From assembly GCA_947448725.1 (NCBI GenBank), contig CANFOM010000001.1:1-64000 (forward strand): DNA of 64,000 nucleotides, in the 5' to 3' direction. A program made the position numbers and the translations under genes. Source of the DNA: Bacteroidota bacterium (GTDB lineage Bacteria; Bacteroidota; Bacteroidia; Chitinophagales; Chitinophagaceae). Of the stretch, positions 3,192 through 40,870 are shown piece after piece (positions within the stretch are counted from its first letter, which is position 1; every line of letters begins with the position of its first letter). Below the pieces are notes generated by a model. It made no database searches, was not told the DNA's origin, and worked only from the letters and a program-made list of their open reading frames with translations.

Positions 3192-3896
3192 ATGAAAAAT
3201 CTAAATGCACTTCGGTCTATCAAACTCTCTTATTTATCAATTCTATTAATAGGTGTTTTTTTAAGCGCATGCAATAAGAGTAGTTTATATCCAAATGAAC
3301 CTCAGTCTTCAACAAATGAGATTGCATTAAGCGAAGATTCGATTTTCAAATCTCTTGTAATTGATCTAAGAGATTATAATGAAGTAGTGTCCAATGCCCA
3401 TGCAGATACTATCATGAATCAATATGATTTTGAAATAAACTTTAACAATGCAGTTCAAAAAAATGATCTTAACGCTAGAAAATTAATTGCAAATACTATG
3501 GGGTTTGCAAATGAAAATGAATTCTGGAAAATAAGAGATGATATGACATCTAAAATCGTAGCGTTATCAAAAAAGTATAATTTAAATAAAATATCCCCAA
3601 ATAATCTTAATAAAATAATTACCAATCAAATAAGCACTAGTACAATAATTGGTTTAAATAATAAAAGATTTACCTCTTTGAGGTATGATAATGCTGGATG
3701 TTTGGATATTTTTAGCAATTGTAAAAATCAGGCTAGTTCAAATTACGCGCTTGAGCAAGTTAATTGTGTTGACTTTGGTGTTTTTGGATGGACGCTTATC
3801 GGAGGTGCTTTGTTTATTGCATGTGAGGCTGCCTCCAACTATCATCTTTATGTGAGCGATAGAAGCTGTAATATCAATTTAAAATATTGTAAATAA
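3192..3896 (+). CDS. Cysteine-rich lipoprotein of unknown function
   Basis: This 234-residue protein has a lipoprotein signal (hydrophobic stretch about 14-24, lipobox LSAC with C27). The middle is a charged, helical, low-similarity region. The last ~65 residues hold six cysteines (AGC, SNC, VNC, IAC, RSC, KYC) and a Gly/hydrophobic patch, FGWTLIGGALFIACEAA, which suggests a disulfide-stabilised C-terminal domain in the periplasm or on the surface. Five bases downstream a small membrane protein begins. I do not recognise the family. A secreted antagonistic or signalling role is only a guess, based on the mix of small membrane partners and toxin-antitoxin neighbours. Confidence 0.7.
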   Translation: MKNLNALRSIKLSYLSILLIGVFLSACNKSSLYPNEPQSSTNEIALSEDSIFKSLVIDLRDYNEVVSNAHADTIMNQYDFEINFNNAVQKNDLNARKLIANTMGFANENEFWKIRDDMTSKIVALSKKYNLNKISPNNLNKIITNQISTSTIIGLNNKRFTSLRYDNAGCLDIFSNCKNQASSNYALEQVNCVDFGVFGWTLIGGALFIACEAASNYHLYVSDRSCNINLKYCK

Positions 3897-3901
3897 ATAT
3901 T

Positions 3902-4171
3902 ATGTCAACTACAAACTTAACTACCGAACAAAAAGAACTAAGAAATCTACTTTATTTTATCAATGCACTTTTAATGATAGTATACGTTATCTCGAATTAT
4001 TATAAATTAATTCATCAGGAGTATCAAAATTTATTGAATTCATTAATGGTGATTTTGTATGGGATTATTTTTACTATTGGCTACCGAAAAAAAATTATTA
4101 ATAAATCTTCTCTAATTTTTACCTTATTGTTTGTTGCTATAATTATGACCATTGCGCTATATAAACGCTAA
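3902..4171 (+). CDS. Small membrane protein
   Basis: This 89-residue protein has three hydrophobic segments (about 14-31, 44-61 and 67-85) and a basic C-terminus. It starts 5 bp after the lipoprotein stop, so the two are almost certainly co-transcribed. No family is recognised. If the lipoprotein were an antagonistic or exported factor, this would be in the place of an immunity or anchoring protein, but nothing in the sequence proves that. Confidence 0.6.
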   Translation: MSTTNLTTEQKELRNLLYFINALLMIVYVISNYYKLIHQEYQNLLNSLMVILYGIIFTIGYRKKIINKSSLIFTLLFVAIIMTIALYKR

Positions 4172-4229
4172 TTGCCAGCAAAACATAGTTCAGTCTATCT
4201 TTTTTTATTCAAAAAATTAAAAATTAGCA

Positions 4230-4466
4230 ATGCCTTCATTAGCCTTAATAAAATTTGCAATAATTATAGGATTCATTTTACCCCTTTTAATTTTTATCAA
4301 TGTTGTTGTGTATATTGTTAAGAAGGAAGTGATTAAAACAACTTTACTTCGTAGTTTGAAAGTATTTCTAGCCGCCATAGTTATTATTGTAATGTTAGGT
4401 TGGTTGATTAATGTATATCGCTCCAACCTAACTAAACAGGGTCCTTTAATTATCAAGCAGAATTAA
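4230..4466 (+). CDS. Small membrane protein
   Basis: This 78-residue protein has two long hydrophobic helices (about 5-30 and 43-65) separated by a basic loop. It lies 58 bp beyond the previous small membrane gene and 33 bp before the YefM gene. A 79-codon reading frame on the opposite strand over the same bases is its shadow. The hydrophobic periodicity supports the plus-strand choice. Function unknown. Confidence 0.5.
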   Translation: MPSLALIKFAIIIGFILPLLIFINVVVYIVKKEVIKTTLLRSLKVFLAAIVIIVMLGWLINVYRSNLTKQGPLIIKQN

Positions 4467-4499
4467 GAAAATGTACGTAATTTTGTACAAAATCATTTT

Positions 4500-4769
4500 A
4501 TGACCAAAGTACTATCCGTTACAGAATTTAGAAGTAATCTGGCTACCGAGCTTGAGCTTATAGGGAATAATAGTAGAAATCAACTTATTATTAAAAGACC
4601 TAAGAGCAAGGGTAATATAGTGGTGATATCGCAAGAAGCCTATAATTCAATGGAGGAGACTTTATATTTATTATCAAGCAAGAAAAATAGAGAACACCTT
4701 TTAGAAAGTATGCATCAAGCTAAAGACGGTAAAACAACCAAAATAAAATTAAAAGATCTCTGGAAATAG
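4500..4769 (+). CDS. yefM: YefM/Phd-family antitoxin
   Basis: This 89-residue protein has the Phd/YefM pattern: an N-terminal TEFRSNLATELELI, a strand with VVISQEAYNSMEET, and a C-terminal toxin-binding segment rich in K and D (KLKDLWK). YefM binds operator DNA through its N-terminal dimer and wraps YoeB with its tail. The YoeB-like toxin overlaps its 3' end. The sequence LSVTEFRSNL at the start is a good match for the family. Confidence 0.88.
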   Translation: MTKVLSVTEFRSNLATELELIGNNSRNQLIIKRPKSKGNIVVISQEAYNSMEETLYLLSSKKNREHLLESMHQAKDGKTTKIKLKDLWK

Positions 4770-40570: not shown

Positions 40571-40580
40571 TAAAAATAAA

Positions 40581-40621
40581 AAACCCTTTAATACATTACA
40601 AATTAATGAATTAAAGGGTTT
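40581..40621 (-). terminator. Terminator of the tRNA-like RNA gene
   Basis: On the minus strand AAACCCTTTAA (40621-40611) pairs with TTAAAGGGTTT (40591-40581) as an 11 bp stem. The loop can itself form a short CATTA/TAATG stem. TTTATTTTTA follows. It begins 9 nt after the tRNA-like 3' end, so the RNA has its own transcription unit. Confidence 0.85.
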
Positions 40622-40629
40622 ATAGTAGC

Positions 40630-40791
40630 TGTAGGGGGAGGGATCGAACCTCCATGAGGCAGTTAGCTAAAACACAAAGTTGAGTGGTCTACCCTGGTCA
40701 CCTATTTCTAGATGGCTCTATGTTTCGTTTATCCCGTTATCCCCACCTCCGAGACGAGGAGGCATGTTTGCCAAAATTTCATCACCCCACA
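40630..40791 (-). ncRNA. tRNA-like RNA with aberrant anticodon loop and 92-nt variable-region insert
   Basis: Minus-strand reading: acceptor strand TGTGGGG (40791-40785) pairs fully, with one G-T, with the 3' strand at 40636-40630. D-arm ATG/CAT (40782-40780 with 40666-type position 40764-40766) encloses a loop with TTGG. A 5-bp arm CCTCC/GGAGG (40762-40758 and 40750-40746) has the 7-base loop TCGTCTC. The T-arm GGAGG-TTCGATC-CCTCC (40653-40637) is perfect and directly abuts the acceptor. Between the anticodon arm and T-arm are 92 nt, closed by TGGGG/CCTCA. The anticodon loop lacks U33 and has T at 37, so it probably does not decode. CCA is not encoded. No tmRNA-like tag is visible. Identity unknown. 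Confidence 0.75.
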
Positions 40792-40839
40792 GTATGTAAG
40801 AACTCATCATTTGAGTGGTTTATCATTCATTTGATAGAG

Positions 40840-40870
40840 TAAAACTAACGTAATGGACTTTATGTTGCAA
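40840..40870 (-). promoter_or_regulatory. Promoter-like element for the tRNA-like RNA
   Basis: On the minus strand TTG (40870-40868), a 20-base spacer and TAGTTTTA (40847-40840) come close to the Bacteroidota promoter form TTG-N19-TAnnTTTG. It would start RNA near 40834, about 43 nt before the tRNA-like 5' end. Confidence 0.45.

Follow-up and report, generated by a model that had tools for sequence, protein, structure and literature searches.

A 64,000-nt stretch of DNA from a member of the Chitinophagaceae, here called the window, carries an apparently stand-alone gene for a tRNA-like RNA. On comparative evidence, the RNA belongs to a family whose fold and whose spread among Bacteroidota are well supported. 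Its anticodon-like loop retains GUC, has mostly lost the combination of U33 and a purine at position 37, and is followed by a giant variable arm. Our best explanation, to which we give slightly less than even confidence, is that the RNA is matured like a tRNA, is probably aspartylated and does not decode, and that the domain in its variable arm does the work.

A tRNA-like RNA gene in the window

The RNA is read from the minus strand, from 40791 to 40630, with G73 and C74 at 40629-40628 (Table 1). The parts that the earlier note had described (an acceptor stem, a T-arm, a D-arm with GG, a loop TCGTCTC and a 92-nt insert) are all in the sequence of that strand. The acceptor strands pair as UGUGGGG/CCCUACA with one G-U. 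In the anticodon-like loop, GUC lies at 40753-40755 and C38 at 40751. The variable region of 92 nt is closed by GGGG/CCTC, 40741-40744 being paired with 40656-40659. As read from the alignment, unscored, the hairpin in the insert varies in length and sequence within the genus and keeps its pairing. A covariance model (R1) was built from 24 aligned sequences; the window RNA, itself one of these 24 training sequences, scores 185.8 bits with it (E 3e-48).

Table 1. Features of the tRNA-like RNA gene in the window, and copies of a second, different tRNA-like element
Feature	Position	Strand	Remarks
tRNA-like RNA gene as modelled, N-1 to C74	40628..40792	-	mature body 40630-40791
Acceptor stem, 5' strand	40785..40791	-	7 bp, UGUGGGG
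D-arm	40764..40782	-	tRNA-Leu-like, 3-bp stem, GG in loop
Anticodon-like arm	40746..40762	-	5-bp stem, loop TCGTCTC at 40751-40757
Giant variable arm	40656..40744	-	4-bp covarying stem, GATAAA/CTAA internal loop, then insert domain
Helix around insert core, 5' strand	40716..40725	-	partner 40670-40679
Insert hairpin	40699..40714	-	GAAA (GNRA) tetraloop
GGGTAGACCAC	40684..40694	-	window copy of the long-form element GGRUNGACCAC
T-arm	40637..40653	-	GGAGG TTCGATC CCTCC, 5-bp stem
3' acceptor strand CCCTACA	40628..40636	-	discriminator G73, encoded C74
Bacteroidetes-type promoter	40840..40870	-	TTG-N20-TAGTTTTA, one mismatch to TAnnTTTG
AGTTCTT	40798..40804	-	recurring; lies some 10 nt 5' of the RNA
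Intrinsic terminator hairpin, then T run	40578..40621	-	
Second element, copy	L268:9979-10113		
Second element, copy	L268:4587-4707		
Second element, copy	L269:10173-10281		
Second element, copy	L269:10650-10809		
Second element, copy	L321:3169-3299		
Second element, copy	L325:5950-6100		
Second element, copy	L414:431-581		
Second element, copy	L415:492-596		

Rfam 15 and ARAGORN both miss the RNA; their sole find in the whole window is an ordinary tRNA-Arg at 577-649. The RNA had been called undescribed, and neither it nor 16 further loci gave an Rfam match at the gathering score; at a permissive threshold the sub-threshold matches were at chance level, far below the gathering scores. ARAGORN called nothing at 42 loci of the RNA except a 78-nt oddity in L369, and nothing at the position of the RNA in 80 viral loci. 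The open-licence full texts that we searched held no recognisable description of the RNA.

Covariation of the cloverleaf

By folding energy, the 162 nt were indistinguishable from shuffled sequences (z = -0.79), and the minimum-energy fold was not a cloverleaf. This measure is uninformative here, and the case for the RNA therefore has to be made by comparison. When relatives were searched at the DNA level, homologues turned up throughout the genus; they align over the whole RNA except at contig ends and in L028, which is without part of the insert. In the 24 aligned sequences, drawn from the genus and from other families, the 25-pair cloverleaf has standard pairs in all 597 cells. Nine pairs are changed on both sides. 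The middle pair of the D-stem alternates between U-A and C-G among relatives. There are 35 double-changed cells against a shuffle mean of 6.5, and none of 500 shuffles of the alignment reached the observed value for any of five measures.

A second set comprised 55 distinct, mostly more distant sequences, none of them used in training. Here 98.6% of 1371 cells pair, 15 pairs are doubly changed, and double-changed cells number 151 against 36 in shuffles (0/500 reach the observed value); because this alignment was fitted to the model, it is biased towards the structure. Covariation is present in all five helices in both alignments. The earlier note had proposed a search of relatives for a conserved, covarying model, and homologues with compensating changes are abundant. 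Two of the results by which it would have been refuted, a significant Rfam hit and a lack of homologues or compensating mutations, thus did not turn up. Its view that this is not a decaying tRNA agrees with the covariation and with the recurrence in relatives of the promoter element and of a terminator-like T run.

For all further counts, 381 aligned matches were reduced to 337 unique sequences, 330 of them with both full acceptor strands. These sequences are related, and the counts overstate the independent evidence.

Distribution among Bacteroidota

In the genus of the window, 119 of 147 genomes matched the model at 1e-8. The number becomes 118 once three cases are considered: in G1088 and G1109 the matches are pieces of genuine copies at the end of a contig, and that in G013 is tRNA-sized and was excluded. 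Some genomes appear to be without the RNA, but single absences are unproven, many of the searched genomes of the genus being incomplete. The partial model matches L409 to L411 likewise proved to be copies truncated where a contig stops.

In the order, 300 of 396 genomes matched at E <= 0.01. About 238 of the 396 are strong, with a best match of E < 1e-20 (counted by eye); the other 62 have E values of 7e-14 or weaker, within the range of ordinary tRNA genes. About 111 of the 133 genomes sampled from the window's family are strong, again by eye. A search of the class gave matches at 1e-6 in 145 of 395 genomes, with 67 strong by eye, 12 of which come from the window's order. The scores leave a gap, since the weakest long match in the class has 84 bits and the tRNA-sized matches have at most 62 bits. 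Two odd matches in the class are a 109-nt one in G584 (61 bits) and a 78-nt form in G485 (62 bits). A sample of 296 genomes from the phylum, the widest taxonomic range over which the model was run, adds two genomes of a family outside the class (f134), with three neighbouring copies each.

The pattern of the anticodon arm occurs in at least 120 stretches of named species genomes, including Cytophagales and Saprospiraceae; the 80 titles among the matches listed are all Bacteroidota or uncultured relatives. Named carriers include Chitinophaga pinensis, Dyadobacter, Spirosoma, Cyclobacterium, Algoriphagus, Emticicia and Marivirga. The RNA is mostly 109 to 212 nt long. A similarity search of a plasmid collection with the window RNA gave nothing useful.

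No neighbouring gene is universally shared. Among the neighbour clusters that do not overlap the RNA, the largest is present at 26 of 120 loci; 12 of these are listed and are Chitinophagales by title. A larger cluster (74 loci) was set aside: judging solely by where its representative lies, we take it to be a translation of the antisense strand of the RNA.

Some copies are unusual in arrangement or form. Tandem arrays with regular spacing occur in L213 (five copies, 3687-4631) and in G630 (three copies, C1:5110192-5110562). Two apparently decayed extra copies in the genus (L412:427-573 and L413:285-425) have lost the 5' half of the frame and kept the insert and the T-arm. A divergent copy in a genome of the window's genus (L416:398-569, G1110) scores 72.7 bits and has an enlarged D-loop. 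The 78-nt form in G485 (L369:1038-1115) is a tRNA-sized relative with the loop CTATCTC and no insert, which ARAGORN names tRNA-Asp(atc); perhaps it lost the variable-arm domain, or never had it.

Ends, promoter and terminator

All 24 ordinary tRNA genes tabulated from the genome encode C74, and 17 of them are without a full CCA. The 3' end of the RNA follows the same rule: G73 and C74 are present in 330/330 full-length unique sequences, C74 being invariant, and the next base is free. This pattern in the genes suggests that the RNA is likely to be matured like a tRNA.

The promoter-like element and the terminator described in the earlier note are present, with small corrections. A Bacteroidetes-type element lies about 48 nt upstream, whereas a sigma-70 scan was blank on the RNA strand. 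We named the element after a consensus of the type TTG-N20-TAnnTTTG, which we take to be that of Bacteroidetes promoters. The terminator hairpin is present downstream (Table 1), although the one site that a simple terminator scan gives is on the plus strand, within the RNA.

The promoter element and a terminator-like T run recur. TAnnTTTG was found within 70 nt upstream of 151 of 274 non-viral copies, compared with 23 of 274 in a control stretch (-150 to -80), and GTTCTT upstream of 97, compared with 5 in the control. When the TTG element was added, there was only a small excess (52 of 274 copies, 28 of 274 in the control); some sites are lost to the 70-nt limit. GTTCTT, or AGTTCTT, presumably resembles the boxA antitermination element. 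Downstream, 213 of 275 non-viral copies have a run of at least five T within 80 nt. Among viral copies, the two upstream motifs were present in 7 and 2 of 49, and the T run in 13 of 51.

The anticodon-like loop and aspartate identity

Loop bases were counted in 142 seven-base loops, all from genome sequences found with the model (143 minus one; 90 from the alignment with most training sequences and 52 from the alignment with none). The species-contig and viral sets were excluded because the pattern by which they were selected fixes the anticodon arm. U35 and C36 occur in all 142 loops, C38 in 140 and G34 in 137. Position 33 is T in 113, G in 12, C in 11 and A in 6, and position 37 is T in 127, C in 8, G in 6 and A in 1. 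Only 7 of the 142 combine U33 with a purine at 37. The genome's own tRNAs have U33 in 24/24, a purine at 37 in 24/24 and C38 in 2/24; these are 24 of 27 above the cut-off, and the three left out (L032, L055, L056) share their anticodons with tabulated ones. The window RNA has C33 and U37, as noted earlier from its sequence. The pyrimidine at 37 is typical of the family, whereas C33 is not, most relatives having U33. This conservation pattern indicates that the RNA is probably not used in decoding.

The bases that are kept are those of aspartate. According to a review (PMC9976931), bacterial aspartate identity resides mainly in G73, G34, U35, C36 and C38. All five are present in the window RNA and occur together in 136 of the 142 model-found RNAs. 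In the long form of the RNA (see below), positions 34-38 read GUCUC in 213/213 seven-base loops, most of them pattern-selected, and in 79/79 among the model-found ones.

The acceptor end agrees less well. The same review gives G1-C72 and G2-C71 as strictly conserved in bacterial tRNA-Asp, calls G1-C72 crucial and lists G10 as a core determinant. The RNA has G2:C71 in 330/330 sequences, but U1:A72 in 328/330, and among 143 model-found sequences only 21 have G10 (A10 in the window RNA). Its acceptor end equals that listed there for bacterial tRNA-Gln (G73, U1-A72, G2-C71), yet the Gln anticodon bases are absent; serine identity wants C72 and leucine A73 (PMC9976931). The strongest hint to mechanism thus comes from the loop, and the main weakness of the aspartate reading lies in the acceptor end. 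The very large variable arm could in addition hinder binding to aspartyl-tRNA synthetase (AspRS), and GUC might be conserved for a different reason, such as pairing with GAC in the insert. Each of 14 genomes had one bacterial-type AspRS above the cut-off, including 7 that gave no strong match to the RNA, so that no co-occurrence signal was seen.

The variable arm and its conserved element

The variable arm starts with a covarying 4-bp stem and an internal loop resembling GATAAA/CTAA, followed by an insert of 27 to 119 nt (4 nt in one odd case). The long form is characterized by the element GGRUNGACCAC, which is exact in 212 of 330 inserts, matched at 9 or 10 of its 11 positions in 3 and at no more than 8 in the rest. 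Among 330 shuffled inserts, none matched at 11 positions and 10 matched at 9 or 10, most reaching no more than 8. Because the non-matching inserts score no better than shuffled ones, the element is all-or-nothing in these sequences. The first long-form set had been picked by the letters GACCAY, which made those letters invariant by construction; the recount given here scored the whole element.

A helix of at least 5 bp flanks the element in 177 of 215 cases, compared with 235 of 1075 when halves of different sequences were combined; 91 distinct sequences of the helix occur. Weaker evidence comes from two bases seven positions apart, the first directly before GAC, which pair in 168 of 215 against 134.6 expected if they were independent. 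Element-bearing RNAs are 138-212 nt long and element-less ones 78-201 nt, and the two forms are often neighbours (as in L083, L085 and L370). Complementarity of GGGUUGACCAC or CUGUCUCG to rRNA was unconvincing, 16 and 11 of 100 shuffles being as good, in a comparison with one partial operon (L408) in which the start of the 16S is missing.

Copies in predicted viral contigs

The anticodon-arm pattern was found in 80 predicted viral contigs, all of which (80/80) also match the model with at least 78 bits. Many of these copies are identical and hence not independent; 51 are unique and full-length. A protein cluster common to 48 of the 80 contigs has a representative that matches the terminase large subunit family. 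Of the 80 stretches, which are parts of contigs, 44 contain no tRNA according to ARAGORN and the others up to 20 genes; the RNA is thus not merely a passenger in tRNA arrays, although further tRNAs may lie elsewhere in those phages. It directly adjoins a tRNA-Ser gene in L250, L293 and L300. A tmRNA is also encoded in 3 of the 80 stretches, beside tRNA genes (L300:1840-2225, L311:1417-1818 and L259:1813-2169).

All 51 unique full-length viral copies are of the long form, compared with 164 of 279 non-viral copies; the two samples were drawn differently, and the contrast is only suggestive. The distribution in phages suggests a role that matters in infection. A similarity search of a phage collection with three queries gave nothing useful. 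Four matches in Enterococcus phages were dismissed as 30-nt pieces over annotated tRNA-Asn.

A second, different tRNA-like element was also noticed (Table 1). Its hypervariable body is enclosed by a constant frame of the tRNA-Leu type, AGTCAGGTGGCGGAAT(N)GGTAGACGC ... ACAGGTTCGAATCCTGTCCTGACT, after which AC usually comes. A scan (L417 onward) picked out at least 120 viral stretches, and 76 of the 120 listed fit the whole frame, with a total length of 75-165 nt in 75 of them and 281 in one. No constant anticodon arm is visible in 16 examined copies, and ARAGORN calls some copies odd tRNAs.

Comparison with known RNAs

The RNA shares with the class II tRNAs (tRNA-Leu and tRNA-Ser) a 7+5-bp acceptor/T branch, a 3-bp D-stem, a Leu-like D-loop and an extra variable arm. 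It differs from them by G73 (A73 in Leu), by its Asp-like loop, by a much larger variable region with a domain of its own and by the absence of a constraint to U33 or to a purine at 37. The tRNA-sized matches of 80-89 nt reach about 60 bits with the model and, from their length and D-arm, are taken to be tRNA-Leu. With tRNA-Asp(GUC) it has in common G34, U35, C36, C38, G73 and G2:C71; unlike tRNA-Asp, it has U1:A72, mostly no G10, a pyrimidine at 37 and the giant variable arm.

Like tmRNA (RF00023), the RNA has a free-standing gene and tRNA-like ends and occurs in viral contigs, but it keeps an anticodon arm and a D-stem, has no tag frame and is shorter. We rejected identity with tmRNA, as the earlier note had done: the locus gives no RF00023 match, a frame of at least 9 residues ending in AA-stop is found in 0/330 full-length RNAs, the window's included, and the genome has its own tmRNA. 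The latter is cut at a contig end (G000:C4, L059), with a tag ...GEANFAMAA* that was read by eye, the Rfam match being a weak piece of 18 bases.

Allo-tRNAs and tRNA-Sec-like RNAs, as presented in the main text of PMC7609411, resemble the RNA in being non-canonical tRNAs with long variable arms. The RNA differs in its standard 7/5 branch, its Asp-type loop and a structured insert with a conserved element, and that main text contains no occurrence of 'bacteroid' or 'cytophag'.

Discussion

In the explanation that we tentatively prefer, a stand-alone Bacteroidota gene would be transcribed into an RNA with a tRNA-core fold, which would be matured like a tRNA and receive CCA. The RNA would have no part in codon reading, because U33 and a purine at 37 are not kept. 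Its anticodon-like loop would instead be a recognition handle for AspRS, and the CCA end would most likely be aspartylated, or the RNA at least bound by AspRS. The large variable arm would present a separate domain, in the long form GGRUNGACCAC at a covarying helix, to a partner that would use or sense the charged RNA. Aspartylation is a specific and testable part of this scheme, with evidence on both sides. A bolder version is possible though doubtful in our view: throughout the class, these would be non-decoding RNAs charged with aspartate by the ordinary AspRS, with the variable arm as a separate domain, and phages would carry the long form as infection depends on it.

The same loop bases would also fit an uncharged decoy or regulator, which binds AspRS or other tRNA enzymes and tunes their availability without being an amino-acid donor, much as tRNA mimics within synthetase mRNAs regulate the synthetases themselves. 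We consider this somewhat unlikely. The RNA retains the Asp identity bases of the loop and of position 73 and yet has U1:A72, which is not the pair of Asp, as a decoy might, and anticodon mimicry for yeast AspRS is a described precedent (PMC9976931). The acceptor end, G73 and C74 are, however, as conserved as the loop, which would be needless for a pure binder, and no link to aspS was seen in the copy number of AspRS in 14 genomes. Were the RNA instead a decoding isoacceptor of tRNA-Asp, reading GAC and GAU under special conditions in spite of its giant variable arm, the nearly invariant GUC, the complete tRNA fold, the tRNA-type 3' end and U33 in 113/142 would be explained. With a pyrimidine at 37 in 135/142 and a base other than U33 in 29/142, against 24/24 for purine 37 and U33 in the genome's own tRNAs, and with an ordinary tRNA-Asp(GTC) in the genome, we regard this as quite unlikely.

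The viral copies raise another reading, that of a translation-linked or counter-defence RNA with which phages would replace or shield a host RNA that comes under attack in infection. It draws on the model match in 80/80 pattern-found viral contigs, the long form in all 51 unique full-length viral copies versus 164/279 non-viral ones (in samples drawn differently) and the 44/80 viral stretches without an ARAGORN tRNA. We nevertheless think it unlikely, as it leaves unexplained a chromosomal gene that is kept over families without a shared neighbour, and many of the 80 contigs carry identical copies that are not independent. Bacterial Y RNAs occur in phages too and reportedly mimic tRNA, so that a YrlA-like RNA bound by a Ro60 orthologue would be a further candidate, one that we find scarcely conceivable. 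Unlike YrlA, the RNA has ends formed by an intact acceptor stem; a TROVE (Ro60) protein is present in 9 of 119 genomes of the order but was not found in this genome (G000, about 95% complete). A relic of a tRNA, or a selfish copy without function, might account for the decayed extra copies (L412, L413) and for the genomes that appear to be without the RNA. It is nonetheless highly improbable given the strong constraint on pairing, the recurring promoter and terminator features and the retention over a class.

Our best reading remains a tRNA-matured, probably aspartylated and non-decoding RNA with a working variable-arm domain. A covarying RNA that is common in the window's family goes unseen by the RNA and tRNA annotation tools used here. 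Aspartate identity has seemingly been separated from decoding in nature, which makes testable whether aminoacyl-RNAs are kept for jobs outside translation. If the bolder version is true, bacteria would have another kind of free-standing tRNA mimic in addition to tmRNA and the Y RNAs.
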